Assembly: GCA_017591395.1 (NCBI GenBank)
Contig: WEDG01003466.1
Span: forward strand, 17,405-81,404
Length of the DNA stretch: 64,000 bases
Reading direction: 5' to 3'
Source of the DNA: Schistocephalus solidus
Lineage: Eukaryota; Platyhelminthes; Cestoda; Diphyllobothriidea; Diphyllobothriidae
The notes under the pieces were generated by a model. The model saw only the letters and a list, made by a program, of their open reading frames with translations. It had not been told where the DNA came from and did no database searches. Position 1 is the stretch's first letter. Each line of letters opens with the position of its first letter. The position numbers were made by a program, and so were the translations under genes. Positions 1 to 37,453 of the stretch are shown here, piece after piece.

Positions 1-118
1 CGTCATCGGCCAGCCAGGGTGCTGCAAACACCTGAGGCCCGAACTCATGAGCGTTTGGCTAGGAAAGAGTCCAACGCTATAACCATTGAGCCGCGAGTTC
101 CTTGTCCTATCGACTGCG
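1..118 (-). mobile_element. tRNA-headed hammerhead SINE, copy 1 (cut by window edge)
   Basis: Read on the minus strand, a tRNA-like head (box A-like GGCTCAATGG, box B-like GAGTTCGGGCC) is followed by the start of the family's ribozyme module, GCTGG then CCGATGA, which runs off the window at base 1. The 5' edge near 118 matches the AGGACAA start of the copy at 7208. The core differs from CTGATGA by one base (U4 to C), so this copy is probably inactive as a ribozyme. Confidence 0.6.
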
Positions 119-152
119 AGCCGATATATTAACAATGTTAGTGTCCACTGAA

Positions 153-352
153 CATCAGACATTGGAACACCCGAGGTTGGGTATGACTGGCTGATAACGG
201 CTAATAAACCGGAAATGGAAATTCCGGTCTCCTTTATCGTTGACGGCAATGCCCTTCTGTCTCATATAGAGGAAACGCTAGGCAGCTGCTGGTGGGGTTC
301 GGGATTGAATTCCGAGGTAGGACGGGACGAACGTGTTCTGTAACGCGATCTT
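153..352 (+). mobile_element. Hammerhead SINE, copy 2 (5' truncated)
   Basis: This copy lacks the tRNA head but keeps the linker (GGTTGGGTAT), the ribozyme module at 185-229 and the distal tail that ends GGGACGAAC...GTAACGCGAT near 350. The same tail follows the module near 3222 and 7490, so the full family unit is roughly 280-330 bp: tRNA head, hammerhead, unique tail. Confidence 0.65.
185..229 (+). ncRNA. Type I hammerhead ribozyme motif in SINE copy 2
   Basis: Stem I GACTGG (185-190) pairs with CCGGTC (224-229), including one U-G pair. The core is CTGATAA (191-197), where the consensus CTGATGA has G8 changed to A. Stem II is CGGCT (198-202) with AACCG (207-211) around loop AATA, one pair lost. 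GAAA lies at 212-215. Stem III is the very short A-T-G type hairpin (215-222) with T223 as the predicted H17. G8 is the general acid/base position in hammerheads, so this copy should not cleave well. Confidence 0.6.
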
Positions 353-1187
353 TGAGCGCTCCACTAACGAAGATGCGATTACGGACGTCGATGGCGTCAC
401 AAATGCGTCCAATAACTAATACAAGCCACCCGTTTTACGTTTAGTCTCCTCAAAGCAGATGGATAACCAGGTAGAATTACTGCGACCAGACGCGAACTGT
501 CAAGTTATGGTTAACTCAACGAGACCCCGGTCACACCGTCAGGTTCGATGAGGTCAAACTCCTCGAGATGGCCATTATCCCCCCCCCCCGATGGTAAAAC
601 CAACTTGCGTTGTATTAATTCCCACCCCAAGCATCGCATCCGATGTTAGGACTAAGAAAATACGACATTCCATGACGGAATGTGCAGTCTTATTTGTGAA
701 TGATACAAAATGGTTTACCCCTAGCCAGTAACCGAACCCACATCTACCGACTCCGGAAGAGTAGACTGGGTGACAAAAGTAAGATTTCAACTGTCAGTTG
801 AAACTGGGCTCCTGACCGCAGGGATTCCAGTGGGAAAGGCTACCCTGCGTGATTAGCCCCCCAGTGCGGCCATCCACGTCTAGAGGTGACTAACCTAGGC
901 CTGAACACAGCACAGAGCCCAGGTAATAGACGACGATTGGTCGACCCACTATCCAGTCGCTAACGTAGCGCATTTTACACGTCCACAGTCGAAGTTAACT
1001 ACTAACCATCTCTCCCTCCGTCAAAGTACACACCGACTACAGACCAGAAAGATCCAAAAATATTACATTAAGCATGCAAAATATTAGGGAAAAAGGACGT
1101 GGGTGACAGGTAAATGTGGGGTGGGGAGGCAGAGCCAGGTTTAAGCGACGCGCGGGGGAAGGGTGACTGCCAATGTCTGAGGGCGGG
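353..1187. other. No gene recognised
   Basis: This stretch is downstream of the last SDR exon. Apart from a run of 11 C at 579-589 I see no conserved protein, RNA or repeat in it. A canonical AATAAA for the SDR transcript was not obvious just past the stop codon. Confidence 0.4.
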
Positions 1188-1617
1188 TTAACCAAAACGC
1201 GGCGGCAACGGCACGGGCTCCGGATGGGTATCCAGCCGTAGCCAGCGTTCACTCAGTGCCCAGAGCAGGCTGCGCGCTTTCTGTCGCTGGGCCCCCTCCT
1301 CGGGACTCCAGGCAAGGCAGCGTTGGAGGTCCTGATAGACAGGCGCCCCCGCGACTGCTGACTGTGCGCCCGTTAACTCCACAGCGGGCGGTTCAGCCAC
1401 CACGCACATAAACTCTGTCGAGGCAATGCGCTTGGGCAGCACACGGGTGAGAAGGTGGCCAAGGTTGAGAAGACCCCGTCCAAAAGATCGAAAGACACGC
1501 GCGAATGCGCCTTGGTGAGACTGATGATCAATGATGTCTGGTGGAGAGGTTCGGTTGACTCCCGGGTCCGAGATCAGCACCGAGACACCGGAGTTGGCCA
1601 TTCTGGAGGCGAGTTCA
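1188..1617 (-). CDS. SDR family protein, last exon (exon 3)
   Basis: Residues 249-391 and stop of the SDR gene. The acceptor TTTTAG ends at 1618 and the exon opens with T, completing the GA left by exon 2 to give Asp, then Glu-Leu-Ala-Ser-Arg-Met. This continues the retinol-dehydrogenase-type helix 'LF-x-ELA-x-R' without a gap. The next strand reads SGVSVLISDPGV, matching the family's 'GV-x-V-x-x-x-x-PGV' after the active site. The C-terminal part keeps the family's 'G-x-Y...W-SPE...A..LW-x-LSE' pattern (GAPVYQDLQ, AWSPEEGAQ, LLWALSERW). The family assignment and splice join are well supported. Exon 2 lies 13.7 kb away, with mobile elements between. Confidence 0.85.
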
Positions 1618-2984
1618 CTAAAAGGCGAAATGAGACCATAGTGAAAACACTAGCAAGGAATCTAACATAATCAAACTGCCCCAACCCGAGGCGTCCCCGC
1701 TGTCACCGCCACTGAAGGCATTCGAAGTCATCAAGAGTTTTGGGGGTGTATTTGATCGGATTTGCATCGATAAATCGAGTGACGGTCCCTTCGGAAAGAT
1801 GGTTTAATTGTTTTGAGCGTATAAACACGAAAGATTGGCAGTCACATCAGTGGGCAGAGCGTTTAGATTTGCTGAAAAGTGCGGCCGACATACACGCAGG
1901 GGTATAAAACGCACTGAACGTGGTGAGTGACGTTGGCTTTCGTTTTGGGTACCCAGAGCGGCTGCTGGTGTTGCAAAGGCGACGTCCCAATCTGCACCGC
2001 GTGCCTTACTCCCTCTCCCCAGTCTTGAGAGCTTATAAAAATTGGCTGTCGCCGACCTGTCCCTACTGCGAGATAGGCAGATTCCGTTTGTGTAGATCCA
2101 ACATTAGGACATTGGATTACAGGCTGAAGCAAAGCGAGGGAAGAATTTACTGAAATAAGCAAATAAAGCGACAGTGCAGTACGAATGTGGCAAGTGAGAG
2201 TACCGAGGCTTTACCGTGCTTATATTTGACCCTTCCCATCATTTGTCGTTTTATTTCATCCCAAATAACTCTTAGAGAATATCAGCTATGTTCCATACAC
2301 TTTCATGGTTTACATGCTTTAGCCCGTACGTGTTGATTCCTGCTCCCATTCTGCTTCACCATCCACGTGAATGTAAGTTGGAACATGTTTCCTCAGCCCT
2401 CATTCCTATTACACAGTGACAGGTAGCAATAGCAAAGCTCCTCCCCCATTACGAAAGCTAATAAGACCAGTCCTCACTGGAAATGATGTCATACGCCCGT
2501 GATTTACGTTAATGTTCAACGAACAGATTCCGAGTTCAAGTTCACCCCCCCTCCCACAAACCTAGGGTGAAAGTACGACTCGCTGAAGAGGGTAGACGAG
2601 CCACAAACAGCCTTCCTTGTTTGGTCGGCACATTGCTGAGACCAGAATCCCACAAGAGTGAGATGAAAAAAACTCATAAAGATGGTTCCAGTCGAGAACA
2701 AGGGGTGAACTACTATGTTGGCGGTTTCTATTTTGTGTGTTTTTCCCAGACTGGTGTCCAAGGGACAGTTTTCAGGGGCGTACCCCTCTTCACCTCGGTT
2801 GGACGAACGGGCGAGGAAGTAATTCTAAAAGTAGAGTTGAGGTGACGGCAGCATGAAAGAACTCCAGTTTGGGGCTTGTGAGAAGCCAGTTAAAACTACT
2901 GGGATCCAATCGCGTACAGAAGAGCCTTAAAAGGGGCGACCCGGATGCGTACTTACAATTCCGTCAGTAGACACTGGCTCGGGA
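1618..2984. other. 3' part of SDR intron 2, nothing recognised
   Basis: Intron sequence adjacent to exon 3. Short open frames on both strands show no family motif. No SINE or LINE similarity was noticed before 2985. Confidence 0.4.
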
Positions 2985-3228
2985 TAGGGTATTGCTGGCA
3001 GGAGACGCCAACAAAGTTAGCAATCTAGGTTCGAATCCCAGATAATCCAAACTCGGGATTGAGCATGACTGGCTGACGACGGCTGATAAGCTAAAAATGG
3101 CTATTGTAGTTTATCTCGTCTGTTCCTGCATAAATGCGTGTCGATAGGTGACTTCCTACAGGACTCTAAAATTGGGTCCCAAGACACAACAGGACGAGCA
3201 AATCCCGTAACACGATTGAGTAACGCCC
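2985..3228 (+). mobile_element. Hammerhead SINE, copy 3
   Basis: Box B GGTTCGAATCCCAG (from about 3030) is followed by GATTGAGCATGACTGG and a decayed ribozyme: stem I 5' strand GACTGG (3067-3072), core CTGACGA (3073-3079), stem II CGGCT-GATA-AGCTA. The partner strand of stem I is lost. The distal tail (AGGACGAGC...GTAACACGATTG) is present to about 3225. Confidence 0.6.
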
Positions 3229-3261
3229 TTCCCAAGATACGGAATATTCCCAATCTCGCAA

Positions 3262-3425
3262 CTGACAGGAAAGGGGCCCAATGGTGAAGCGTAAAAGAAT
3301 GCGGGTTCGAATCCAAGTTTACCGGAACCTGAGATTGGGTATGCCTGACTGATCACGGTTAACAAGCCAGAAAGTACTATCCAAGTTTCCTTTATCTCCA
3401 TCGACAGTTCCCATCTGCATTACTG
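3262..3425 (+). mobile_element. Hammerhead SINE, copy 4
   Basis: Starts with the family 5' end CTGACAGGAA and a box A-like GGCCCAATGG, then box B GGGTTCGAATCC (about 3301-3312), GAGATTGGGTAT, and a decayed ribozyme (CTGATCA, CGGTT-AACA-AGCCA, GAAA). Stem I no longer pairs. It lies directly behind copy 3 in the same orientation. Confidence 0.6.
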
Positions 3426-3584
3426 TCGAATTCTGTTTCGGTGTCCTCGTCAACAATAGGCAGAGAAGACCGAATGACTAAAGTCCATGTGCTATAAAGA
3501 TGTCAGACAGGCTGCAGTTGGGTCCAACTGCAGAAAAAATAGAGGGTGGGACTATGCGACGAGAAAATATGATGAACTACACAG

Positions 3585-4400
3585 TATGACACTACTTGCT
3601 ACGGCTGCGATCATGCCGGATCAACCCAGCCTCAACGATGTCGCTTACCGTACCTCTCCATGTCTGGCGATACACGACAGCAGATCTGAACAGGTTAACC
3701 CATTCTCTTCACCAGCGACGGAGACCGAACACTGAAGGTCCTAGAACCACTTGCATGCCTTGACAAACTGTGTCGAACTAGGTTTTGAGCTGACCCACTC
3801 TTCTATTCCCCGAAGTAGATAAAGGTGCCGAATAGAGGGCATTAATACTGAGCTCGTGAGGTGGACGACGAAAAAGGTGCCTAACTACCCCAGTCTTCTT
3901 TCTTGGATGACCTGGAACATCCTAGCGATGTTGTCGCAGTGAATGAGAACTGTCTCATTTGAGGCGATGGTTCGGAAGCAGTGGTGGTGAGACTCGAATT
4001 TTCACTCATCTCCCACGACACAGCCCAGCATTCACAACCGTCGTGGCGATGGATACATCGCATTGGATTTTGAGGCCTTTTCTAAGGCAGGAGAAAATCC
4101 GGCAAACAGCACTGATTTAGGAGACAATGTCGTCCTTACTCTGTACATTCGACAGCCGCCTCGCCTGGAGGTATTTCAAACGGTCTACCTCTTCAGGCTG
4201 ATAACAATTGATCCCGAGAGGACCCTTCTCCTGGTCAGGGATTCATAGTGAAAACACTTTGACCTTTATGGATAAACCAACCTATGTGGCGACTTAATTC
4301 ACCCGCGACACTACGGACTGCAGACGAACATGGGAATACGAATATCTGAATATCTTATCAGGACAGACTAAAACACGCCGACTCGGGAAAAAAAGTACCG
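3585..4400 (-). mobile_element. Old 5'-truncated RTE-like LINE fragment
   Basis: Minus-strand copy of the 3' third of the LINE at 20.8-23.9 kb. Recognisable pieces are the counterpart of 'GCECWA' (HDGCECWAVSWEM, near 4030), of 'SNETV...CENI', of 'KTWLDTVRQDMEVVLG' (near 3780) and the 3' end ATGATCGCAGCCGTAGCAAGT (3590-3612). Upstream similarity (TTTATGGATAA, CACCCGCGA) carries on to about 4330-4400 and then fades. Frameshifts and stops throughout show an old copy; it lies antisense inside SDR intron 2. Confidence 0.7.
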
Positions 4401-6007
4401 GAAACGGCGCTTGATTACGTCCAATAAAACCGTTAATTAACGCCCTTCACAACGTCACTTCCAGCCAAGAGCCTCCAATTAGCGTAAAAGATGATATAGC
4501 GCAAGTAGCACGATACAAAGCCTTAACCGACTTCCTCCTAAAAGCACAACAGTAGGTGACGAGGAAATAAACTAAGTCAACAGTGCTGGATAAGGAGATC
4601 TCCGTGAAAAATCTTGTGTATGGAGTTGAGCAGATGGAAGGAGCGAAAAGGCAGGAAGCCTCAGAAGTGTCTGAACCCTAACGGTGCTGCAGGCGGAGCG
4701 AAAGATCGACTTCGCAAACATAAAAATACTTGAAGACAAAACAGCAAATTATGCACCGAACACACGCACATACACACATCTGCAAGGCCTTCTCGCGGAT
4801 GAATAACAGTGAAAGTAGTGACAAACAAGCCGTCATATAAGAAAAGGGAGGTATTCCAATCAATTTAATCCCGTGGCATGCGATCCGTAAAGGGAGCATC
4901 ACGTGATGAGACGCCGTAGGTGGCGGGCGCCCCGTCTCTCTGCCGTCGCTAAATAAAATCGACGGAGGGTACACTCGTGTGATTTTAAGTGCGAGGACGA
5001 GGGCTGCGAAACGAAAAGCTCGACGCTGTTATCGTCGTCTCCGTGCGCACGCACAAGGCTCCGACATCATCATCATCACCAGGAGAGACGGCACCGAGGC
5101 AGAGACAAGTGCGCGATCGTGTGACGGACAGGCATGTATGCAAGTGTGACATCACGTGACTAGTCGGCTTGTAGACTAACGGACAGGCACGGCTGAAATG
5201 CGGGACACGCACAGCACTCGAAGGCCGGTAGCATGCGCGCACCTCAAGCAGTGTGAGACAAAACGGCAGTGAGCACAAGCTTTTAAAGCTTGTTTAAAGA
5301 CGACGCCCGCGAGAGGGGGTCAGCTTGCTGCCGGAAGGGATAGCTCAGGGCGGGAAGCCCAGTCACACTGACTGTGACGTGTGCTTTTGGTGGTTGACTC
5401 CACTTCCAACAGGAAAAATGAGAGGACGCAAAACCTGATAGGCAGAGGCAACTTTCTCCGCCGGCCTGAGCACGTGTTATACCGCGATAAGTTTCGGAGG
5501 TGTCTTCATCAGCCAGTCACTGAGTCAACGTAGGACTGTTGGTGGGTCAGTTATTAATGTAACACACCCTGTCCGCGCGGTAGCGCAAAAAATCAACCTG
5601 CCGTAGGCCCAGGGGGTAGACAGCTTCACTAAACGAGAGATCGCGCAAGATAAATGAATAGCCCTCTATGCTTTTTGTGCATCAGAATTCAGCAAAAACG
5701 CACGCATACAACAGCCTTGTTAGCGACCAGGATGCACTCCATTTCATGAATGACCAGATAAGCACGGTGGTAGGATGAATGAGCAAAGACAACAGACTAG
5801 TGATACACCGAGAGTCCCGGATTGTTTCCTATTCTAACGAACAGGTTACTTCTGTTAAATGTTAGGCAAAAAAGGCCCAAATGATTCGAGATTGAATTGC
5901 CGATCCCTGAGCAGGGGGGGGGGGTCTATCGCAGCAGTCCTGGCCCACGGAGTGGGGGCAAGAGAGTGTTCAAAGTTATATGAAAGTGGCGTTAACTGGT
6001 CTGATCT
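4401..6007. other. SDR intron 2, no gene recognised; small palindrome
   Basis: Includes a perfect 19-nt palindrome at 5275-5293 (ACAAGCTTT-T-AAAGCTTGT), a CAT repeat near 5063-5079, a run of 11 G at 5914-5924 and a fairly GC-rich part around 4900-5400. Two minus-strand open frames (4678-4974, 4985-5278) have no recognisable domain and biased composition. Confidence 0.4.
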
Positions 6008-6082
6008 GCTTTAGAGTTTGGGTACGACTGGCTTAAAACGGTAATAAGTCAAAACAACAGTTCCAATTTTTCCGGCTGTTAT
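6008..6082 (+). mobile_element. Hammerhead SINE, copy 5 (relic)
   Basis: Matches the family from GAGTTTGGGTACGACTGG through a decayed module (CTTAAAA, CGGTAATAAGTC, AAAACAACAGTTCC). Only the stem I 5' strand and part of stem II are readable. The preceding GATTCGAGATTGAATTGCC may be a worn head. Confidence 0.35.
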
Positions 6083-6279
6083 CCGTAACTGAAGAGAGAG
6101 AGAAGGATCCTTGGAAGCAGGTTGCAATGTTTCGGAATTGTCGAAGAGCAGGAAAGTTAACTCCTCACGAACGATGATGTCATCCCATGTGCCAAACAGC
6201 GTGGTGGGTGCAGGACGTTAAATTGCACACTCTCTCCTTCCACCTTGGTACAGTGGCAAAACAGACTCAGGAGGACCGG

Positions 6280-6366
6280 AAGCGGGATTGAGTGCAGTGA
6301 CTGGCGAAGCTAAGCAGCCCATAAAAGCGTGGTAACTGGATGTGCCCTGGTATGCGGTCATGTTCG
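6280..6366 (+). repeat. 5S rRNA-like fragment
   Basis: GAAGCTAAGCAG (about 6305-6316) equals the internal A-box core of eukaryotic 5S rRNA. The flanks also keep 5S-like order: GTGACTGGC before it (5S: TGATCTCGG), then TGGTAACTGGATG (5S: TGGTTAGTACTTGGATG) and CCTGGTATGCGGTCATG (5S: CCTGGGAATACCGGGTG). The match is diverged, so this is a pseudogene or the head of a 5S-derived SINE rather than a working gene. Confidence 0.4.
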
Positions 6367-6844
6367 CAGACAGAACAGAATACCTAGAGTCTGCGGTCGA
6401 CCGAAATAACTACTAACGAAATTCCCACTTTTCTAAATATTGTTATTTTTACTAAAACTCAAACTTTACTTAGACCTCTGGCCACGGACAACAGCCGAGT
6501 AACTGCGGTGTCCCAAAACGATAGTCGAGTCCTCCCTATTAGTCTTTAAATCATGTTGGTTCGAAGGTGCTGCCAAACTGTCAACCGTCTGCCCTCGAAG
6601 CGAATATTTTTATCTGATCACACGTCCCACAAACCTCCTGAGAAGTGCTAATTTTTCGAACTCTTTCCCCAAGGCGACACCGTCGTCAAGGTGGTAGGTT
6701 GAGAATTTGGAGGATGCCGGCGGCAGTTGACACTGCTCCAAAAACCGTTTTAAACTGACATTCAGCAAGAAATGCAGCTTAACTCAGGCGGACACAGGTT
6801 ACAGACAGATGTGCAACATCTGAGGCGCACTTTTTGCTTTATCA

Positions 6845-7035
6845 GTCTCATAAGGCGGTACTGACAAAGACAAAGGAGACCGGAATGGTCCTTTCAGGCT
6901 TAGTAGCTGTCATCAGCCAGTCATACCCAAGCCAAAGTGTGAAACACCTGGGACTTGAGCCCGGGATCTTTGGTCATTGAATCGGATGCCCTATTAATGA
7001 GCAACGGGCCCGTTGTCCTGTCGGTTGGGATCGGA
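6845..7035 (-). mobile_element. Hammerhead SINE, copy 6 (full head and ribozyme)
   Basis: On the minus strand: CGACAGGACAACGGGCCCG, box A-like TTGCTCATTAATAGG, the linker AATGACCAAAGATCCCGGG, box B-like GGCTCAAGTCCC, GGTGTTTCACA, CTTGGGTAT, then the ribozyme at 6922-6878 and GGTCTCCTTTGTC. Head and linker match the copy at 7208 closely, showing both belong to one family. Confidence 0.7.
6878..6922 (-). ncRNA. Type I hammerhead ribozyme, intact core (SINE copy 6)
   Basis: Stem I GACTGG (6922-6917) pairs fully with CCGGTC (6883-6878). The core CTGATGA (6916-6910) and GAAA (6895-6892) are unchanged. Stem II is weakened: CAGCT-ACTA-AGCCT keeps three of five pairs. Stem III is A-G-G / C-A-T around a two-base loop with one mismatch; predicted H17 is T6884. 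Of the copies here this has the best-preserved catalytic core, but helix II may be too weak for fast cleavage. Confidence 0.65.
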
Positions 7036-7207
7036 CATATTATTTATAGAAGATGGGTGCTCATCAATCAGGTTAGGCAACGTGCTTGTTCCGTTATATC
7101 TTAGAGGTCATTTTAGAAGCCTCGCAGGCAGTGGCATAGCGATTAATGGTATAGGCAGATAAGGTGGTACCCACAAATATCGGTGAGCATTCATCTACCA
7201 TCACTAA

Positions 7208-7495
7208 TATTTTTGATTACAGTCAACAGGACAACTAGCCCGTGGCTCATTGGTAGAGCACTTGACTCAATAACCAAAGATCCCGGGTTCGAATCCCAGT
7301 CGCTGCACACTTAGGATTGCGTATGCCTGACTGCTTAAGGCTAATATGCCCGGAATGGTCATTCCGGTCTCCCTAGTCGTTGTCTGCATAATCTTATCTG
7401 CTGACCACATTAGCCGCTATGCGACTGCCCGCGGGATTTTGTGTATGAACTTTAAGGCACAGCGGGACGAACACGTTACGTAACCTGATTGGCCA
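7208..7495 (+). mobile_element. Hammerhead SINE, copy 7 (longest copy)
   Basis: AACAGGACAACTAGCCCG and box A TGGCTCATTGG (about 7251-7261), AATAACCAAAGATCCCGG, box B GGTTCGAATCCCAG (7289-7302), GATTGCGTAT, a decayed module (CTGCTTA in place of CTGATGA, GGAATGGTCATT, CCGGTC), GTCTCCCTAGTCGTTGTCTG and the distal tail AGCGGGACGAACACGTTACG. The pol III boxes are well kept but the ribozyme is not. This copy defines the length of the unit, about 285 bp. Confidence 0.75.
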
Positions 7496-10400
7496 GTCTT
7501 TCTGACGCCAGCTGTTAAAACGTGAAGACTATGCACGCGATAAATAGAGACTCTAATGAATGCTAGGAGCAAAAGACGACCGTCGATGACCCGCACACCC
7601 AGTGTTCATTCCCCGTGACGGGAAAACGCAAACGACGCCAGATGGAATTGATTGTTATTGGTAAAAAAGGTGGAAAATTAAACCGGAGACGGAGAAGCAA
7701 CCTACGCCAGGGTCGATCTTGAACGTAAATTCACGCGCGCAAAGGGGCACAAAGGAACATATCATGCAGATGGGTTGGCTTACGGTGTGAACTACAGGCC
7801 ACGGCTTGTGTGCGAATGTGCGGTGAAAAAAAAACTCGTAAGAGCGCCATCGCATGCAAGCGAAGAGACGCAAAACGAAGGCAGCACACGCATCAGTGCA
7901 TTGACTGACGGTACGTGGAAGGCTTTACTGAACTTCACGGCTCCCCCCTGCCGGCCTTGGTCCCGCGGCCGGTTGAACTAGCTGAAAGTTAGTAGCGCTA
8001 TAAAGAGTTATTTCCCACCCAAGAACAGCAATCACAATTAACCGGTCTGATATTTTTTTCCTTTTCTCTTTTTCCTTGATCAGCCCTCCCCCTTCACCTT
8101 AGACATGACACTGTGTGCGGTCACAACAGACAAGGAATTAACAATTTCCGCGGCCTTAGTGTATTCCTTCAAGCACGTCTAGAGTCGCATGGTGGTCTTT
8201 CGGGAGTCGAAGTAGCCCGTTATAACTGATTATTTCCGTTCCCTTCAGACTAAGCCTGTGATTTGGGTGATGAGTGGAGGTCAACGACCTGTCGAGTCAG
8301 GAGATATGAAAAAGGTGTTTGAATACTTTCGTGAAATGGGCATGCTGAAAGTGGGGATAGACCGCGTGCTAGTTGTGCGGTGAGCAGGTCGTGTGAAGCA
8401 CGCGTAGACGGGTGTTGAGTTCTAACAGCCACTGTATCCAATCCCATCACCAAATACTTGAAAAGCTCTGACAGTCGACTGATGTGTAAGAGATGGCAGA
8501 GAGAATGAGGTCGACTCTGGGAACTGCATCCCTCCCCAAGGCACGTCAGCGAATTCTCGCACAAAATGACGAGGCGACTCGATCATGTTGAAACGGGTTG
8601 TTAATTGATAACACTGTGTATCGCTATCTAAGTTTTGCGTTCTCGAAGCCTCTGCCTGACTGCCTGTATTAAATTTGCCTCACAGGTTGCTTTGTCATTT
8701 GTCAGGGCAGTTTTGCCGGTCCCGTGTGAGTATACCAGGACGTCTAGTTGATTGCCAGACAGTGAAGCTTCTATGTTGCCCTTGCAGCGCCTTGCTGTCC
8801 TATTGACTAACGGTCACCTGTAGTGACGTCATCACAGAAGGCGCTCACGTGAACGCTCCTTCAGCCCTACGCCAGTTACCACCATGGCCCGAATCTCCAG
8901 AATCAGATCTTGCCTCCGAAGTGGTGGAGCTCCTGTACCTGATTCAGATGTATTTACCAAGCTTCTGTGGGGCAGAGAGGTGTTATCAAGATATCGGAAT
9001 GGCAATAACTACATCAAACCCGAGTGACAACGCAGAACGCTGAATCACATGGCGGGGATAGGTAAGTTTGTGCACTCTCTCCTCGGTGAGCTGCGCCAAT
9101 CCCAACGGTTACAGAAAACGGAGTACAACCTTGAACAAGCTACAAATACATAGATTTGCAAGCCAGACCCACTTGATTTTTTGGTTAACCGTTTCGTTGG
9201 ACGAAAGTAAGTACCTATTTGCCGTAAACAGGTGCCAGTTGAATTCGAACTTGGCCAATTTTATCTTTCACAGCTTGCCTGTGGAGATTTCGCAAGTAAA
9301 GCCAGGATCTGATGCGTGTTAATTCACTCCAGAAAATGAAGTTCAGTAAGGGGCGTTTACTGCCCATTGCTGCTGGCTGCATCAAAATGGTCGACAAAAT
9401 AGCAAAAAGTTACTTAGCCAGTCCAGTAAGCAGACTAGCAATTATTTTCTATCATAGTTATCCGGGAGATTACAAATACATTTGGCTCCAAATATTCATC
9501 CGTCAGTAATGCAGACGAACACAGCTACCGCATGAAGCAGTTGTGACTCTCGACTCATCTACCTCACTCCTTGTCAGAATCAGCATGCTCAAAATGTATG
9601 ACAAATCCAGAACCACTGAGGACAGTCCTACTAAAACCGAAGCTGACTTTAGGTGCAAAGTCGCTGGCAAAGCAAAGACACACCGACTAACTCCATCTAG
9701 ATTCGTCTGGCCCTCGAAGAGGTTGTTAGGGTTTGGCGGTTGTGCCCCGAATAGCGCGTCTCGGAGTCATAGATTAAAGTTGGGTGTTATGTGGGCTCAA
9801 AAGGGAATGATCAACTCGCGCAACCATACATTTGGTGCAGCTCTCAGTCTATGAACGTGACTATTTCTTCTAGTAGCCCCATTAAATGCACCTGTGGTTG
9901 ATTATCTCGATTGAAAATTTTAGCGATGCCCTTCCTCACTTCTGTGATGCAATCCATGTCGAAATAGCGGACACAAGGTGAAAACGAAAGACAGACCGTC
10001 TGATAATGTTGCGAGAAAGAGAGGAATATAGTCGGTCAAATGCGGTTAGAGAGGAGGCATCTTCTGCGAAGCTAGCGGCAGGCCCACGTCAACTGCTGAA
10101 TAGAACAAACGATTACACTATCCGCGGAGAGCAACTCCGTTGTTGCGGGGTGCACCCTGCTCCCAGCGGCGCATCGGACCAATAAGAAGCGAGCAGGCAT
10201 CGAAGTTAAGCGCGAAATACATGAGTCAGACAGGGTAGTCAACACCACCATCGTCGTGGCGACGACGCGATTGGCAACAATGTGGCCGTGTTGACAAAGT
10301 GACTCATTCATGAGGAAGTCCGCTTTGGCTCACCATGTCGCACGAGTCTAGTACAGCAAAAGATACCATGCTTTCGGGGTTGGTGGCGGCGTAAGAGGTC

Positions 10401-10714
10401 AGAGGGGGTACGTGACACCTGAGTAAATACGCATCTGTTCCTCACAGTTTATGACCTCCAGAATGTCGAATTATTTCCTGAGCACACAAGTCCCGTTCTC
10501 CGGAATCTATCCAGTCCAAGTTAAACATAAATAAATGGCCTCGGATCCTTGTGAAGGATAACGTTGCCAGTTAAAGAAAACCTTCGGACCTTACTGCAGG
10601 GATTAATATGCACGGTTCACTTGAGAAATTATATATGAGAGGAAAAGTTCATCTCGGAAACTGTGACTGTACTGCTCTGAATATTGAATACAGACCAGCT
10701 TTCGTAGGTGTAAG
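7496..10714. other. SDR intron 2, no gene recognised
   Basis: A strong pyrimidine tract followed by CAG (about 8047-8082) looks like a splice acceptor on the plus strand but no exon with a recognisable domain follows. Short frames at 7775-7981, 8250-8564, 8849-9043, 9068-9322, 9543-9854 and 10072-10311 carry no motif I know. Confidence 0.35.
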
Positions 10715-10800
10715 TAAGAGCGAGTGGCAGAAGGCTATTTTCGACTTATTTGCCGTCATAATTTAGCCATACCCAACCCCGGGTTTGCATAATCTGAAAT
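10715..10800 (-). mobile_element. Hammerhead SINE, copy 8 (relic)
   Basis: On the minus strand: GGGGTTGGGTATGG, a decayed core (TTATGA), CGGCAAATAAGTCG and AAAATAGCC. Linker and stem II are recognisable; the rest is lost. Confidence 0.45.
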
Positions 10801-10964
10801 TGAGACGTGGACTCTCTGGCCACAGAGGACTAAGTCTTGTTGGTTTTGATCGGGAATTTAAACCAGTCGCAGGAGGGTGTTCGCCAATCAGGCTGCAGAA
10901 TGTACTCAATCTACAACTCTTGCAGGCAGCCATGCAGCAATACCGACAAGGACAAGGGGGACTG

Positions 10965-11065
10965 GAATGAACAGTTAGGTCTCATTAGCTATCGCCAGCC
11001 AGCTATACCCGACACCGGGCCTGGCTGACTTGGAATTCGAACCCCGGTTATATGGTCATTTAGCA
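10965..11065 (-). mobile_element. Hammerhead SINE, copy 9
   Basis: On the minus strand: box B-like GGGGTTCGAATTCC, GGTGTCGGGTATAGCTGG, core CTGGCGA, a worn stem II, CTGTTCATTCCAGTC. Stem I is AGCTGG against CCAGTC, partly paired. It sits back to back with copy 10. Confidence 0.5.
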
Positions 11066-11140
11066 TGAACTGACAGGACAACAGGTCTGTGGCTCAATGT
11101 TAAAGCATTGGATTTAACAACGCTTGATGATTAAATAATC
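11066..11140 (+). mobile_element. Hammerhead SINE, copy 10 (head only)
   Basis: ACTGACAGGACAACAGGTCTG, box A-like TGGCTCAATGTTA and GCATTGGATTTAAC match the family head. The sequence leaves the family before box B, so this is a 3'-truncated or interrupted copy. Confidence 0.5.
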
Positions 11141-13659
11141 CATGGGGGTCATTATTTCAGCTTACTTATTTTTGCGATCGCAGCTAGCCGGCCTTGCCGT
11201 CATTTTTCCGGGGTTGAAGGAAGAATTTATAATCGTGGGACCTTGCTCGATCCGTCTGGGCAGACAACTGCAAGGCTAGTCGGCTGACCCAGCTACTGCG
11301 GCACCGCTGGATGGACCCAATCATATCAGCGAACCCATAAACGGGTGACTTTAACGATGACTATTTGCTACCATCTTCCCTTTCGATTCTGTTCGTAAGA
11401 TCAAACCGCATTTCTGTGCTGAGAGCGTAGATTACGTTGGCTTATCGTGGTTTTGTGACATGGAGGCATCTTGGAGGTGACAATTTGGGTGCAGATGAGA
11501 GGTAAACTTTCGGGCGTGTGCGAAGGAGAACATAGTCTGACCCATGGGCGTTATCAGTTTCAGTAACACATATCGAGCTGCTATCACGAACAAGGCTGCG
11601 GAACCTTGGCTGACTTCAATTTAGTCAATATGACTGGATGTATGGTTGTCCTGGTAAGTGTTTGTGGCGGTGCTGAAAGCTCGTGTCGGTGAGAATTAGT
11701 TCTCATCAGCAAAGTCCAACATCCTCTTAACATAGTCACACTAAAAGCCAAATACAAGGCGGTCAATGAGGTGATAGTTTAAAGTCACTGGGTCCATTTC
11801 GACTATTGTATATACTATTCGACTGTCACGTTCAAAATGTCCACCGTATGCAACACAGCAGGGTGGCGGTGACGGCGACTTGAGCCAGATTATAGTGAGA
11901 GTAGACTTGCACTGCATCTACACCTCTGTTCCACTCCCCCACGGTGTCAATAAGAATGGAGACGGGAGAGGGCGAAGACCCACGCACAAAGACGTGGGGC
12001 GGCTCGGATCCCAGCTAAGCGGGAGGGCCATTAAGGTCACATAAAGGACCTATTGCTGTCTGAATCTCAGTTCGGGGGACCGAGTTATTCCCTCAGCCGG
12101 CAGATTTCCAAGCCACAGCTTTTAACGTACCGTGATATTTTCAAGCGCGTCAGATTGTTTACAGCGAGGAGTATGCGCTGAGACTGTCGGCCTCACTCTC
12201 CCCCACCCTCAGCATCAGGCCACCGTCCGAGCCGGTCAGCTATCTGATGCGGGAGTGGGGTGCAGTGGCTGAAGAGTGTTCAAGGCAATGTTGATGAGTG
12301 TACTCGGTTGACGAAACTCGAAATTCAATGTTCATAGGGTCACTGCACGATCCCATTGAATGCATAATTTGCAATGCTGACCAGAGACATCAATTAACCG
12401 TAGCTTTTGCCGGTTACCTACCCAAACTTCGAAATTTAAGGAAGAGACTGATCTTCGGAAAGTCGATAAAGACTATATGGTTAGGGTAAGACCACCTTGT
12501 TTAGCTCATACGGTGAAAATGCGAGTTTGGATTTGAAGATCCTTTACTTGATGAGGCAAGCTATCTTCTTCAACAGCGCAGTTCGATATAACTCTGTATT
12601 TCGTGACCGGTGGATACAACGATCGGCTTTATACTAAGGATGGTTTTCTGAGATGATATCATGGTTAAAAGACAGGACTGCGTACTTCTTAGCACACCCA
12701 GGTGTAGTCAGCTTGTAGACAAGGGGACTAAAGTATCTGAACCAGCAACGCCAACCGCTTGGACGCCCCCAAATGACAGAGTGTTGGGAATCGCCGAAGG
12801 AACAGTGTGGCTGACAGAGAGACTGCCATTGAGCACCTTGCAATCCCAAAAACTGCCAACCGTACATAAGGCAAAGGCGAATAATCAGGTACGGCGTCCA
12901 ATTCGGCCCTAAATTGTCCCAGTTTGCTGGATGTATTTCCCTGGAAAGCCCTAGTGATTCAAGTACCAGCAAGTCTGCGAGCAGTGCATCATTTAGATTG
13001 GGAATTTAAAATACTGGGTGTGAACACGACAAATGACTAACTTTTCAATGTTTTTCCTGTCCTTGGAGGTGCAAATCAACAACCTATGGTATTGGAGAAG
13101 GGTCAAAACAAGCCAATTGTTACGAATTCCCAGATAATTCTTCGGAAGGTGGTTCAGACAGACCTTATTGCGAAACCAGAAACAAAGCTTCTCCGACCAT
13201 TCTAGCACCCAGCCACCAACAGCAGCCCACGGCGAGAGGATATTACAACAAAATTTTGCGACCATGGGAAAGTTTATTTATCGCGCTGGTCGGTAGCTGA
13301 TGTTGGTGTGCACAGAGCGACGACAGAGATGTTCGGAAAACTGCTTTTCACTCGGACGTAATCCATTCGGTCGTTGACGGGTCCTCATCCAAGTAGTTCG
13401 TGGTTTGCAAGTTGCGAATGAGCGATCGCCACCAGAGGATTAATTTTGGTCACTATGGTATAAAGTGAAGTCGGAGCTTAACCCCTGGGACCTTTATTTC
13501 CGTAGAGCATGAGTTGGAGGTTCGGACTTCGGACAGACCAGCAGACGCAGACATTATACTGAGGAAGACAGCGCACCCTCGTATGTTGGGTATAAGAGAC
13601 CAGTAAAGTTCAGCACCTAGAGTCCGCTCGCGATTGAGTAGTACAGATTTGCACTATTC
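11141..13659. other. SDR intron 2, no gene recognised
   Basis: No conserved protein motif, RNA gene or repeat similarity was found. The longest frames (12634-12972 minus, 12993-13265 minus, 12661-12912 plus) overlap each other and have no recognisable domain. Confidence 0.35.
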
Positions 13660-14086
13660 GGTAACGATAGGTGACGTACAGCACCAAGAAAGCCAGAAAC
13701 CCCAGGCTCGTGTTTTTATTCATGTTCAACGATGAAAAAGTAAATGTTTCCCACCAGAACAATTATCCTTTTTACACCGATGTCGAAGCAACACCATTCT
13801 ACCGAAGTCTGTGCGGGTGAAACCGGCAATGAAGTTATCCCATGGCTTTCTAATCGCAATTTGCAATGGTTATCAAATTTTGGAGCTTTTGCAACAAATG
13901 CGCTACATCGACTTCGTAAATTCAAGGAGCAGAAATAACAACACATACAATTTTGCAAGGACCATATACACCGCATATTACCAGCTGTAATGCCCCATCC
14001 GTAAAACCCCTATTACTACCAGTCCCGTATTACACGAGGCTGGGGTTTCTGGTTTTCTTGGTGCTGTATATAACCTACCGTTATCC
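13660..14086 (+). mobile_element. MITE with long terminal inverted repeats
   Basis: The left end (13660-13713) and the right end (14033-14086) are inverted copies of each other over about 54 bp. The best blocks are GGTAACGATAGGT against GGATAACGGTAGGT, and TACAGCACCAAGAAAGCCAG followed by AAACCCCAGGCTCGTG against the same with two or three changes. The interior (about 320 bp) has no transposase. Target duplications are not obvious. A truncated inverted copy lies at 14740-15094 and a fragment at 56541-56600, so it is a dispersed family. Confidence 0.7.
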
Positions 14087-14160
14087 ACGATTCTCTCACA
14101 CAATTAGACCGGGGTTGCGGAGGCCATACCGTGGGTCGCAATACTGTAATTAGACATTTC

Positions 14161-14355
14161 ATGAAGTTTCTTAGGGATTTATAATACGGGTGGGTCCCTA
14201 ACAGTCGCTCGAATTGCATGTTTTAAATTGGCTCCTGTAGAATTTTGGAGCAAGAACCAGGCCACAAGGTCGCAGTGGCAAGAAAATTTGCTCGCAATGT
14301 CATAGTGTCGTCACGGGACTTGCGTTATTTCATAAGGCAGTCCTTCAAGTCCTGG
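14161..14355 (+). repeat. Dispersed repeat R, copy 1
   Basis: About 195 bp similar to 29871-30068: both have GGGTGGGT/GCGGGTGCC, CGCTCGAATTG/CTGCTCGGATTG, TTGGCTC/TTGCTCCTC, CCACAAGG...GTGGCAAG, and a right end TTCATAAGGCAGTC/TTTATAAGGCAGTC. It has no reading frame in common and no terminal repeats, so its class is unknown. Confidence 0.5.
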
Positions 14356-14739
14356 TAATCTCGTTGATATTGGTCGGCTAATGCTTATTCGTCAGACCCG
14401 AGAACTTGCTTATTTCACAACTAACTTCCGTCGAGGGCCGGTAACTAGCAGCTAGACCACCGGGTAACCCGTCTTCTCACCACATCAGCCAATGCGTCGT
14501 CAGACTACCTGACCCAGGTAGCTAATGAAGACAAAAGGCTGTGGCCAACAGCCACAATCAAGATGTCCGGCGTCTTTGTTCAACGTCTAGCTCGCCTACG
14601 GCAACACGCACAACTGGAATACGAACCCACAAAAGCAGCCGCAACCACAGACCGTCTCCAAGGCATGACTCAACACCGGAAGCACCCGCTCTGGTCTTGC
14701 CAGTGGCTACTGCTGCCTGAGGCAGACATGGAAAACTCT

Positions 14740-15094
14740 CATTACGGGTGGGGCATTACAGCGAGTAATAGAAGGCATATATGGATGGTCCTTGCAAATT
14801 TGCATGTGTTGCTCTCTCTTCCCTTGAATATACGAAGCCGAGAGTGCGCATCCGTTACAAAGGCTCCAAGAAGTTGACAAGCATAGCTGTTAGAAAACTC
14901 TAGGATGACTTCATTGCCGGTTTCACCCGCACAGATCTCGGCAAAATCCTGTTGCTTCGACGTCGGTGTAAAAAGGATGATTGATCTGGCGTGAAACAGT
15001 CTCGTATCGCACACTTTTCCATCGTTGAGCATTCAGCAAAACACGAGCCTGGGGTTTCTGGCTTTCTTGGTGCTGTACATAACCTACTGCTACC
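14740..15094 (-). mobile_element. MITE family, copy 2 (one end lost)
   Basis: On the minus strand this matches copy 1 from its left terminal repeat (15094-15042: GTAGGTTATGTACAGCACC, AAGAAAGCCAGAAACCCCAGG) through shared interior blocks (TCATCCTTTTTACACCGACG, ACCGGCAATGAAGTCATCCT) to AATGCCCCACCCGTAATG at 14740. The right terminal repeat is missing. Confidence 0.65.
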
Positions 15095-15298
15095 CTGTTT
15101 TTTGCATAAATGATGCCTGTTGTAGACAGGCACAGCACAGGAGCAGACGGAGGGACAAGAGGCACCTCAGAGATCACTTGAGGGAGGGAAAAGACTGCGG
15201 AGCAACAAAGAGATGAGGACCGCAAACAAACACGAACCGCTTCAAACTAGAAGCACATTTAAAACAGAGCACCGAGCTTTACTGGAGGAAAAACGTAC

Positions 15299-15860
15299 TC
15301 TGCAAAGAGGCGCAGGGCCCATTGGGATCGCTGATAGCCCGCTGCCGGCGTATAGCCACTCTCCCAATTCCAGTTTTCCGCGGGCAAGCATATCTCACCC
15401 GATTCTGACCTCTCAGCTGTCATCTCCGCGAACTTGGCCGCTCGTGTGTCCAGCAGGAAGACGACTCGAGCGCCATCTCCGTCTGTCGCAGCGGAGCGCA
15501 GGCTAGGCGCCAACAAGCGGGTAAGGAGGTAGAAGGCGAAGTAATTTGTGCCCAGTTGGTGTTCGAAGGCGTCGTGTGTGGGCCGTCGAGCACCCGCGAC
15601 CACACCAGAAAGGAGGGCGGGGGGTTGGAGCACAAGTCGATCGAGGTGCGGATAGTCATGGAGGATGGAGCCCGCGAAGCGCCGAATGGAACGCGTGCTG
15701 TCTAGGTCTAGGCGTCTACAATCCACGTGCGTCTCCTCCAAACCCGCGGAGCGCATCAACTTCGAACGTACGTTTTCACAATCATCGACTGAAGCCGAGG
15801 TCAGGATAATTACGGCGTTGCGTTCGGCTAACTTACGGAGCAATTCGCTTGACATTCGGC
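15299..15860 (-). CDS. SDR family protein, exon 2 (Rossmann core and active-site region)
   Basis: Residues 62-248. The acceptor CATATAG ends at 15861; GC completes the Ser codon begun by exon 1, and the donor GA|GTACGT lies at 15299/15298. The order of the SDR core is clear: ELLRKLAER...AVIILTSAS (alpha/beta 2), CRRLDLDSTRSIRRFA (the 'DL-x-D' adenine site), LDRLV, TNYFAFYLLTRLL, ARVVFLL, GYQRSQWALRLFA. Compared with active retinol-dehydrogenase-like SDRs, NNAG is replaced by LQPPA (139-143), the catalytic Ser strand reads FLLDT (196-200), and YxxxK reads YQRSQ (Tyr237, Gln241). Asn167 and Tyr237 remain. With no stop or frameshift this suggests a maintained pseudoenzyme, not decay. Confidence 0.85.
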
Positions 15861-16194
15861 CTATATGGATGTAAGAGAAAATAGTTATGTAGACAAGCAT
15901 ATCTGCAAACTTTGAATGACGATGAGAACACCAATTCCGATAAATATATGAATTGGATTCGCGGTAATCGTAAGGGAGGCTGAGGACGAACAGTTATCCC
16001 AACGATGAGCTTATTGATGCAGCAACCCCGCTACGCTTGGCTCGTGGTCCAGACTCTAGCTGGTGGCATAGCAACCAGCAAACGGTAGCTTCAGCCAATC
16101 TGGGGCATACCACCAAAAATATATAATTAAAAGTTGAGAACGGCCTATCAATTACATATTTTCGATCAAGTCAGACATAAAGGTCAGTGCACTT

Positions 16195-16312
16195 CGAGGC
16201 AACCCAAATAAACTGTCTAGGGTCCAAATCTTTGGGCATCTCAGTCCGAGGTCGGGGCAAGACTGCAGATGATAGCTGATAGGCCAGAAACGTTCATTCC
16301 AGTGGTATACAT
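16195..16312 (+). mobile_element. Hammerhead SINE, copy 11 (in SDR intron 1)
   Basis: A worn head (GGGTCCAAATCTTTGGG) is followed by GTCGGGGCAAGACTG, core CAGATGA, TAGCT-GATA-GGCCA, GAAA, CGTTCATT and CCAGT. Relative to the consensus the 3' strand of stem I reads CCAGT instead of CCGGTC, turning the U-G pair into U-A. It lies in the same strand sense as most other copies, antisense to the SDR gene. Confidence 0.5.
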
Positions 16313-16739
16313 TAGTCAAAGACTATAGGATGCGCCTACATTTGCGAAGCCAGAAAAAGGATAGTCACGAAGAGAAACGTGAACCAGGCCGTCCTCCTAA
16401 CGTGTTGTAAACCCATCTTTTGTGAATTTGTGGGGTAATTCTTCCCGATTAAGAAAATGACACACCTGATATTGCCGCAAAACACGGTCGGAATGCATAC
16501 AGAATTAATAATTATTTCGATACGATCCCAGGTGTGGAGTTCTTCTGCGCGCAATATTGTTCTGGTGGAAACGCATACAAAATGGCGAGATAGCCGCTCC
16601 CGTCGGACAGGTTGTTGGCGGATGAGAGACACGCACACAACTGTAGGCGATTGACCCTAGATATCCCTTAGATTGATCACACAAAGGACCCGCTGATAGG
16701 CAGAAGTGGGGGACAAGTGGTTACAAGCATGCATCTTAC

Positions 16740-16923
16740 TGGTGGCCTCCGTCACGAGAACTACTTTGTCACGAATTTTCACCTCAGGACCGTCATAGGC
16801 AGGCGCCCGGACAACGAGACGATAGAGGATGATGCCTCCACCGGCTGACGCGACCGCTACGGCGGCGCCTTGTAGCCATCGCCACACTGTCCAAGGCTTC
16901 TTGAGGGGTTGGAGCGGGCGAAC
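16740..16923 (-). CDS. SDR family protein (retinol dehydrogenase-like, probable pseudoenzyme), exon 1
   Basis: First recognised exon, residues 1-62 of 391. Residues 19-38 (GAAVAVASAGGGIILYRLVV) form a membrane anchor, as in microsomal or mitochondrial RDH11-14-type SDRs. Then KIRDKVVLVTEATS begins the Rossmann fold; the glycine motif TGxxxGIG reads TEATSRMS (58-65), so all three glycines are lost. The donor ACCA|GTAAGA is at 16740/16739. The exon starts at GTT right after CCTTTTCAG, at a codon boundary, and no in-frame ATG exists. Either a small upstream exon supplies the start or a spliced leader ending in AUG does, as known in flatworms. Intron 1 is 879 nt, intron 2 is 13,681 nt; exon lengths 184+562+430 sum to 392 whole codons. 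Confidence 0.8.
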
Positions 16924-17539
16924 CTGAAAAGGCAAGACCGCGTTGGAAAATCATTGCCCCGAAGTCAACAAGGAAAGCATACCTACTTATAGGGCTTTAG
17001 CATCTAAAAACACAGCGCGATGAGAGAAAAAAGAAGACACGATTGGCTTGGAAATTACGGATTCTCACTTGAATCCACCCTTAGAGACAGTTGCAGGCAT
17101 GCGTGGAGACAGAAAGGAGTGCAGTATTTATCGGCCGCAGTGGTTATGGAACAAAACGTCTTATACAGTTAGCAGCTCTTGCGTTTATTGTTGGAGGCCG
17201 TATTTGATGCGATGATAGCTAGTTTGTCCACACCCACGTCGTTAGCTGCCGTGATTTCCTGGGTGTTGACAACTATTGGTATAATGATCACTCAACAAGT
17301 TAGCTCACCGTCACTGGTTCTATTGGTCTCCCACGCCCTCCCTACCTAGCGACATCCTGATCAAGTCTCAGCAGAGAATACAGAGGTAGAAGGTCACTGC
17401 ACTTGTTAGTCAACTGCGGACCGGAGGACCGTGACTCAAGCAGTTAACGGCTCGCGCGGTTGTCAGCTCTTGCGAGAATTTCGGCCTCGTAAAACTTGAA
17501 TGTGTTGCCGGGTTCCGTCGAATGAGCTAGTACGCTTAC
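16924..17539. other. Upstream of the SDR gene, nothing firm
   Basis: This is where a promoter or upstream exon of the SDR gene would lie. A minus-strand ATG CTA AAG CCC at about 17000 precedes a GTATGC donor-like site, but that frame ends in TAG before the donor and its phase does not fit exon 1. No TATA box was convincing. Confidence 0.3.
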
Positions 17540-17830
17540 TCCTCACGGATGCAGCATGTTCGGTTAGTTGCGTCCCCAAACAATCTACCAGTTTCACAGA
17601 CGCAGCCGATTCTTCCGCGACTGCAAGAGATGCGGCAAACTACTTCAGAGGTTACCTGTTGTGACGGTGGGTTTTTCGGCCTCATGACCTGGCGTCTGAT
17701 GGTTGCCTCCGGTCTATGTGCAACTCGAAATCCCAGTGGTGCGAGAAGGCGGTTGACGGCTTCCGAGACATTTTTCATGGACAGGAGACTATCGCTGATG
17801 AGGGATTCGAGTGAGAATCCGAAACGTCAG
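17536..17830 (-). pseudogene. Penelope-like retroelement fragment (pre-GIY-YIG and GIY-YIG start)
   Basis: The minus-strand frame reads NVSEAVNRLLAPLGFRVAH, RPEATIRRQVMRPKNPP, then SEVVCRISCSRGRIGCVCETGR. In Penelope-like elements the linker before the GIY-YIG nuclease reads 'hrpenT-r..l.rpKd' and the nuclease starts 'vVYrI-C..C...YVGeTGR'. Here Tyr-Val-Gly is worn to Cys-Val-Cys, so the nuclease is dead, and the frame stops soon after. No reverse transcriptase part was found nearby, so this is a 3' end fragment. Assignment is by motif only. Confidence 0.55.
17795..17828 (+). ncRNA. Hammerhead-like motif opposite the Penelope-like fragment
   Basis: The plus strand has CTGATGA (17795-17801), a hairpin GGATTC (17803-17808) / GAATCC (17815-17820) with one extra G at its base, then GAAA and CGTC (17821-17828). 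A, C, G, T as helix III is the dimer-type short form known in Penelope-like elements. The flanks ACTATCG and AGGCAAC do not form a stem I, and the motif is antisense to the coding fragment, so it may be a relic or a coincidence. Confidence 0.35.
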
Positions 17831-18394
17831 GCAACTATAATTTTCCCAGCGATCACATCATCTTCCGACCTGCTTACTGGAACTCGCCTCTTCGCTTATA
17901 TTGAAGATGAGAGGGAGGAGGGGGTGATGGGAAATAACGACGGTTCTACGGTCCCAAATTTGTTCAACTATTATTTGCTCGCGCGTGTTTTAACCCTGGA
18001 AATTAAATAGTGCTCTGTTGCTTTTCAAGTGTATGCAGTAGTGAAAAAAGGGCGCTTTTCTCCTAGCTATAATCTGTTCCATGATCCGGCGGGATCTGTA
18101 GCATATATATGTCAGGGATAGTAGTTGCTTTACTAGGGGGAAGGGGACGTCTCTTCATCTTGGATGCAGTCCTTTGTTCTACCATTGACTACGACAAGAC
18201 AAACTCAGGCAAGATACCCACGAGTGCCCGCTGACCGTAGAATTCCGGGATTTTTCGGAAATTAACCACTCAAATCAGAAATTGTAGGTCGGGGTGGAGT
18301 TGTTGATTTCCGGACGTCAAAGGGTTAATTACAGATGCACTAGATGAGTGTCTTAAAAAGTGCACAAACTGATATTACCGAAAAAGACAAGGGA
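17831..18394. other. No gene recognised
   Basis: Plain intergenic sequence between the Penelope-like fragment and the next SINE pair. No repeat similarity inside the window was seen. Confidence 0.35.
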
Positions 18395-18455
18395 GTCTGC
18401 ACTAGTCATTTTTGGCTTATTAGCCGTCATTAGCCATCCATACCTAAACCCACAA
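18395..18455 (-). mobile_element. Hammerhead SINE, copy 12 (relic)
   Basis: On the minus strand: GGTTTAGGTATGGATGG, core CTAATGA, stem II CGGCT-AATA-AGCCA (four of five pairs), AAAATGACTAG. It abuts copy 13 head to head. Confidence 0.5.
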
Positions 18456-18530
18456 CACCAGGCGTTGGGCATGGCTGGTTGATGACGGCTACTAAGTCAG
18501 AAATTGTCATTCCGGCCGGCCGTACCGCAC
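18456..18530 (+). mobile_element. Hammerhead SINE, copy 13
   Basis: Begins at GGCGTTGGGCAT and carries the ribozyme module at 18473-18517 followed by GGCCGTACC. The tRNA head is missing. The copy matters because its stem I has changed on both strands together. Confidence 0.6.
18473..18517 (+). ncRNA. Type I hammerhead motif with compensated stem I (SINE copy 13)
   Basis: Stem I is GGCTGG (18473-18478) with CCGGCC (18512-18517); the family pair A-T at the second position is here G-C on both strands, so pairing is kept. The core is TTGATGA (C3 to U), stem II CGGCT-ACTA-AGTCA with four pairs of five counting one G-U, GAAA 18500-18503, stem III A-T-T/C-A-T with one mismatch, H17 T18511. The C3 change should harm catalysis. 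Confidence 0.6.
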
Positions 18531-37100: not shown

Positions 37101-37453
37101 TTTAATAAATAATAATAAAATAAATAATTGGTATATTTAAGGCCCAGAGGACCCCATTATTACAAACTTAGTATCGCGGTATAAATAAATACAAAAGTGG
37201 ATAATTGCTGTACTATGTGAGCAGCCATATGAACAGCAGAAATGAGTAGTATGGTAGGTATATCCGATTCAGAGCGAGTTGCCATTTTTAAAACATTAGT
37301 CAACAATCTTTGGAATATACGGTGAACAAGAAAATAAGCAGTAAAAAACTCCTTCGGTTAAATCGGGGGCGGAGTTCGGCGAGCAGCCAATTAAAAAAAA
37401 TATATGAGAAAAAAACTGCTTTTTTAATAAATTAATACCTAGAGTTGATGAAA

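Follow-up and report, generated by a model that had tools for sequence, protein, structure and literature searches.

The stretch of DNA analysed here (the window: 64,000 nucleotides of contig WEDG01003466.1 of the tapeworm Schistocephalus solidus) contains old copies of a mobile repeat with a unit of 305 bp. In this repeat, a tRNA-like part with the boxes A and B of RNA polymerase III (pol III) stands beside a small candidate type I hammerhead ribozyme and a tail. The tapeworm genome carries many thousands of copies of it. Our preferred reading, to which we give a probability of roughly two in three, is a non-autonomous retroelement with tRNA-like boxes, a putative hammerhead and a tail that pairs with itself, which the genome's own Penelope-like machinery (GIY-YIG endonuclease and reverse transcriptase) would move.

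A profile of array units (nhmmer, threshold E≤1e-3) matched 12 segments of the window, grouped in six clusters (2-367, 3027-3412, 6849-7496, 10731-11118, 16145-16303 and 18377-18516), and no segment between 18.5 and 64 kb. A preliminary description of this DNA had counted at least 13 copies in the first 18.5 kb, which comes close to the 12 profile segments plus one weak piece from a module search (6013-6066). The profile and module searches also confirm a recurrent family in which boxes A and B are combined with a hammerhead-like module; that module is present, whole or in part, in 11 window rows of the module search. The segments are decayed, with 68-81% identity to the family consensus. Four clusters contain a pair in −/+ order (one with a weak + arm), one is a decayed tandem dimer and one is a lone piece. 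The copies are as follows.

2-144, minus: tRNA-like part of a copy; left arm of an inverted pair in −/+ order (nhmmer E 5.5e-9)
167-367, plus: partial copy that includes a hammerhead module at about 185-229, its core mutated to CTGATAA; right arm of the −/+ pair (nhmmer E 2.4e-24)
3027-3412, plus: decayed head-to-tail dimer, with hammerhead modules starting at about 3067 and 3343 (spacing 276 bp)
6013-6066, plus: weak fragment of the hammerhead module (module profile E≤0.01; blastn E 0.004)
6849-7179, minus: near full-length copy whose hammerhead keeps its core nucleotides, with imperfect stems; left arm of a −/+ pair (nhmmer E 2.8e-69)
7177-7496, plus: near full-length copy, core mutated; right arm of the −/+ pair (nhmmer E 4e-56)
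7243-7299, plus: tRNA-like part with boxes A and B (Rfam tRNA model 24 bits, short of the cut-off at 29)
10731-11062, minus: decayed tandem of two overlapping partial copies (nhmmer E 7.3e-9 and 1.4e-20)
11068-11118, plus: weak fragment, which would turn the cluster 10731-11118 into a −/+ pair (nhmmer E 2.6e-4)
16145-16303, plus: decayed partial copy, alone (nhmmer E 1.9e-8)
18377-18465, minus: fragment of the hammerhead end; left arm of a −/+ pair (nhmmer E 2.3e-14)
18455-18516, plus: hammerhead-end fragment, right arm of the −/+ pair (nhmmer E 8.8e-11)

The copy previously singled out for its core does retain CTGATGA and GAAA (6857-6943, minus strand), with mismatches in stems II and III. 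The bare heptamer CTGATGA is not enriched in the window, since its 14 matches are reached by 9 of 100 shuffles.

The family was followed through the whole assembly (603.7 Mb in 8,019 contigs). An exact 31-mer of the hammerhead core, with A at position 11.1, occurs 19,170 times and the reversed pattern never, so the family exceeds what chance would give. The same 31-mer with a C-G pair at 10.1-11.1 occurs 84 times, again with no occurrence of the reversed pattern. Two sets of loci were examined. The first (L001-L030) holds the best 30 of 40 scored, drawn from 2,959 first-look candidates for a 72-nt query, and is biased toward young copies. The second (L034-L050) holds 17 stretches of 10 kb at arbitrary positions on contigs already known to bear copies; the element forms 20 clusters there and makes up 3.5% of the bases. 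Extrapolation from these copy-bearing contigs gives a rough figure of about 71,000 clusters. One contig of 43.6 kb (G000:C1755; L003-L005) has at least 22 tandem units in its fetched parts.

Young copies are frequently arranged as head-to-tail arrays of the unit, each with boxes A and B, hammerhead and tail, and at many loci the modules follow each other at a spacing of about 300-310 bp. We built the 305-bp consensus from 116 extracted units, one of them empty. The hammerhead occupies positions 9-53, the tRNA-like part about 224-286, with boxes A and B reading TGGCTCAATGG and GGTTCGAATCC, and the remainder is tail; the GC content, from base counts, is 52%. The resemblance to a tRNA is modest: tRNA model scores reach at most 30.3 bits, three matches in six array loci attain the cut-off of 29 while most fall below it, and ARAGORN called no tRNA in the window and one tRNA-Leu-like sequence in 1 of 19 loci. 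The older copies (L034-L049) have a different anticodon region, around TTGGACTTCTGATCAA, which we take to resemble tRNA-Arg(TCT). Between old and young consensus none of 45 hammerhead positions differs, against 14 of 112 tail positions, a comparison in which local alignment may favour conserved parts. The run TTTT is absent from the consensus unit and present in 23 of 115 units. Closed into a circle, the unit has a predicted folding energy of −111.7 kcal/mol, against −82.0 ± 4.7 for 100 shuffles.

We saw no coding capacity in the element, and it departs from an ordinary short interspersed nuclear element (SINE). Pol III-like boxes, as the preliminary description of a tRNA-headed SINE had it, are present in the consensus and recognised by the tRNA model; the fixed 5' head is not, as the units are tandem and circularly permuted. 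The layout of a tRNA-derived SINE, a 5' tRNA part followed by a fixed tail like that of a long interspersed nuclear element (LINE), was not found: 3' ends lie at consensus 195 or 84. This bears on an explanation which we consider unlikely, namely that the element is an ordinary SINE spread by a LINE, with the hammerhead as a passenger and the arrays arising by later, satellite-like recombination. The tRNA-like boxes and the many dispersed copies would suit it, and so would the similarity of units, which is only somewhat higher within arrays (mean 0.91 in 11 arrays) than between them (0.87), with L001, L015 and L023 below 0.87; homogenisation of arrays would look alike. Yet insertions terminate within the unit, either in the tail or upstream of the tRNA-like part, instead of at the fixed 3' tail of a SINE, and in L045 a single unit has both its ends near consensus 85, with the tRNA-like part between them.

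The anatomy of the insertions points to another mode of mobility. Two sites inside the unit serve as 3' ends, one near consensus 195 (CACACTATCA) and one near 84 (CTTTATCA). Allowing up to two mismatches, (TA)3 or longer follows within 3 nt in 14 of 96 occurrences of the first site and 8 of 80 of the second, most of the others running on into the next unit. Four control sites gave 0/294, 0/142, 1/109 and 0/60, or 1 in 605. Both sites end in TATCA, followed by (TA)n. The 5' ends are scattered; we had an impression, uncounted, of clustering near consensus 78-98. Linear monomers released by cleavage were considered as the template and found unsupported, as just one of the 5' ends seen (L014) lies within 2 nt of the predicted cleavage position. 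Neighbours on opposite strands within 60 bp are in −/+ order 20 times and in +/− order twice, a count made without L002, L004, L005, L022 and L024, which were set aside as overlaps. A −/+ pair has 3' ends on both its outer sides, which is what priming of reverse transcription from both ends of the broken DNA would produce. L1-type LINEs are also described as producing 5'-inverted copies (PMC2912911), which helps the LINE explanation; the predominance of one order (20 of 22) argues against it.

The same marks recur in the Penelope-like elements of this genome. In a genome search for GIY-YIG endonuclease domains, 150 of 1,471 candidates were scored and at least five places passed the curated cut-off, with E values of 3e-4 to 1e-3; one of them, L051, was analysed further. 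It has an open reading frame (ORF) for reverse transcriptase (PF00078, E 2e-11), another for GIY-YIG (PF01541, E 5.3e-6), and a 244-bp direct repeat at 98% identity, and its 3' end borders on (TA)n. In L052, another family, P2, stands between the L051 element and an array. Its assignment to Penelope follows from one fragment, 48% identical over 54 residues to the GIY-YIG ORF of L051. As a GIY-YIG protein by database P2 was rejected, with no Pfam match and one PDB match of unrelated name (E 0.0017), and it was kept through the similarity to L051 alone. Merging 20 rows and leaving out one internal repeat gave 15 distinct Penelope 3' ends, of which 11 have (TA)4 or longer within 70 nt (46 of 4,828 background windows do); another three are 3-18 bp away from the element (L006, L040, L052) and one has neither (L045). 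By eye, six P1 ends at (TA)n are of two kinds, three short and three with about 38-42 nt extra, and all have TCA before the TA run. Penelope pieces in −/+ order occur in L035, L051 and L040. Finally, in the composite of L014 (2175-2860) an element array on the minus strand is joined to P2 on the plus strand, with (TA)n outside both 3' ends and the junction at most 2 nt from where the hammerhead is predicted to cleave; it is a single case.

The terminal repeat of L051 (675-801 and 3337-3441) carries CTGACGA...GAAA, which most of ten aligned P1 ends share. We regard this motif, with its ambiguous stem II register, as hammerhead-like and claim no activity for it.

It could be argued that the element merely prefers the (TA)n carried by older Penelope copies and is moved by some other enzyme, the shared target being secondary. 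The many copies inserted in (TA)n next to the 3' ends of Penelope elements speak for this. What makes it improbable in our view is that two alternative 3' ends and −/+ copies are also found in the Penelope elements themselves, and that L014 unites element and Penelope in one −/+ composite.

Mobilisation by Penelope-like machinery gains weight from work on a lizard enzyme. The purified lizard Penelope protein is described as cleaving and extending both strands with a preference for AT-rich DNA, and as starting at two sites inside its RNA, which accounts for an optional tail of 30-40 bp in genomic copies (PMC11167929). We found the corresponding signature here, a shared (TA)n target, alternative internal 3' starts and a pattern of two-ended priming, in a small sample of loci chosen around the element. 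We prefer Penelope to LINE mobilisation because the element and its Penelope neighbours both show this anatomy. Under the proposed mechanism, arrays would be read through into multimeric RNA, as the lack of TTTT in the consensus unit would allow. Neighbouring hammerheads could then pair in trans and cut the multimers into monomers, perhaps circles. The Penelope enzyme would break (TA)n DNA and, from both of the ends so formed, copy RNA multimers or circles, with reverse transcription beginning internally, at site 195 or site 84. Transcription, cleavage and circles are all inferred from the DNA. The full proposal, in which the element, with its tRNA-like head and hammerhead, is spread by a Penelope-like enzyme at (TA)n microsatellites from both DNA ends through multimeric or circular RNA, sometimes with the enzyme's own RNA joined in the same insertion, is more tentative, and we consider it slightly less likely than not.

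In the hammerhead module, stem I (GACTGG/CCGGTC, with CCAGTC in many older copies) is followed by CTGATGA, stem II (GGCT-AATA-AGCC, with C.A at 10.1-11.1), GAAA, stem III (ATGGCCAT) and U17. From 225 module rows we counted 117 distinct gapless ones, 74 young and 43 old. Both core motifs are retained in 68 of the young and 18 of the old rows as well as in the consensus, and position 17 is U in 74/74 young rows and H in 43/43 old rows. Every stem except 10.1-11.1 is paired, with both core motifs present, in 46 young and 7 old rows; 10.1-11.1 is paired too in 3 and 4. The stem III of three pairs and a two-base loop that had been proposed is sterically unlikely by general knowledge of RNA. A two-pair stem closed by a GGCC tetraloop is a better fit, as is an 8-bp palindromic stem III formed between two units. 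For a tandem dimer of the consensus the lowest-energy predicted fold is a full double hammerhead, with six pairs in each stem I and eight in stem III, all in trans, and 18 of the 20 core nucleotides left unpaired; its stem III, however, has a mean pairing probability of 0.08. Newt and Penelope hammerheads may also work as dimers (PMC6155905, PMC7761336).

Several observations weigh against the Penelope reading, some of them concerning the ribozyme. Where stem II had been given as CGGCT/AGCCG, the family has AGCCA, so that C.A stands at 10.1-11.1 in 69 of 74 young and 27 of 43 old rows, in line with the 31-mer counts given above. This pair is reported as second only to 15.1-16.1 in conservation among hammerhead pairs, U.U being the best tolerated mismatch (PMC3088659). 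The Rfam hammerhead models, the check suggested for the earlier ribozyme call, gave no match at E≤10 in the window or in six array loci, and none in L051 or L035. Of the two signs that the preliminary description had named as counting against its family, loss of the CTGATGA/GAAA core is not seen in the consensus. The other is stems that do not covary, and here covariation does not exceed shuffles (88.7% standard pairs both observed and shuffled, among 78 distinct 45-mers, with 616 of 1,000 shuffles reaching the observed value; slid control registers pair in 13-50%, against 89%), in a test of low power because most copies are too alike. The isolated 45-mer is predicted to misfold (−12.5 against −6.5 kcal/mol), and the double hammerhead is the predicted fold of just 19 of 96 natural tandem pairs (in L012, L013, L017, L026 and L027), a monomeric stem I forming instead in 32. 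The mismatch, the silence of Rfam, the absent covariation and the predicted misfolding weigh against efficient cleavage. As to the insertions, among the three −/+ Penelope copies both outer 3' ends are seen in L040 alone, the minus piece being internal in L051 and running off the locus in L035. The P2 fragments lack a Pfam match, the adjacency of element and Penelope ends is biased because loci were chosen around the element, and other retroelements could use (TA)n too.

A weak ribozyme would not be fatal to mobilisation by Penelope, because the lizard Penelope hammerhead is reported to need protein and to be dispensable for insertion (PMC11167929). The same report tells against a third explanation, modelled on a proposal for animal retrozymes, that copying starts exclusively from circular RNA released by the hammerhead. 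In its favour are the tandem arrays, the scatter of 5' ends and the strong self-pairing of the predicted circle, but the same anatomy is expected from uncut array multimers and the C.A mismatch argues for weak cutting; of the explanations considered here, this is the one to which we give the least credence. That the mismatch is retained throughout the family raises the question of whether slow or protein-assisted cleavage is favoured.

Penelope-like elements have been proposed as the drivers of animal retrozymes since the two co-occur and both bear hammerheads (PMC7761336). Insertion anatomy adds another kind of evidence here: element and Penelope share a rare target, both have alternative 3' ends and signs of priming from two DNA ends, and one insertion combines the two. 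If the full proposal is true, it would identify the suggested driver, and the paired 3'-end signature would help to find such elements elsewhere. The thousands of young copies make the steps of mobilisation testable.

The element can be compared with four known systems, in each case through published descriptions. The preliminary description had seen in it a tapeworm counterpart of Schistosoma SM-alpha, and a build of this type, tRNA-like pol III boxes plus a type I hammerhead motif, is supported. SM-alpha and Sj-alpha are described as SINE-like, tRNA-related (tRNA-Gln-TTG in S. mansoni), very abundant and satellite-like, with a type I hammerhead (PMC2770079, PMC8490949), all of which recalls the tapeworm element. 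The SM-alpha hammerhead is reported to be active and fast in vitro, whereas C.A closes stem II in the tapeworm; the (TA)n target, the two 3' ends and the Penelope link are features of the tapeworm element that the SM-alpha descriptions examined do not mention. Animal (non-LTR) retrozymes, reported in flatworms too, share short tandem units (150-450 bp; here 305), type I hammerheads and the proposed Penelope drivers, and are known as RNA circles (PMC7229834, PMC7761336). The element differs in its tRNA-like pol III boxes and in its GC content (52%, against less than 50% stated for retrozymes). It resembles the Penelope-like elements that bear minimal hammerheads in its target, which is (TA)n or AT-rich DNA, in having a choice of two 3' ends, in occurring as both tandem and inverted copies and in its weak stem III (PMC11167929, PMC6155905); it differs from them in having tRNA-like boxes and no coding capacity that we could see, and its hammerhead is unlike the motif of the local Penelope copies. 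Helenus is likewise a short non-autonomous retroelement that captured tRNA-derived pol III boxes, but of the long terminal repeat type, with primer-binding site and polypurine tract, and the text examined reports no hammerhead in it (PMC10886601). In the open-licence literature, no hammerhead element of diphyllobothriid tapeworms was found among the matches listed.

The window holds other features as well. The ORF at 15259-15993 (minus) matches short-chain dehydrogenases at E 7.6e-5, below the Pfam cut-off; its nearest match is a protein of Sparganum proliferum, with 90% identity across 77% of the ORF length. Two ORFs belong to reverse transcriptases of other retroelements, at 22178-23640 (plus; RVT_1 at 22783-23637) and 50620-52889 (plus; RVT_1 at 50620-51459 and a weak RNase H match). 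Between them, at 36007-42071, long inverted repeats of 91-96% identity, with several kb between the arms, stand among retroelement-like ORFs.

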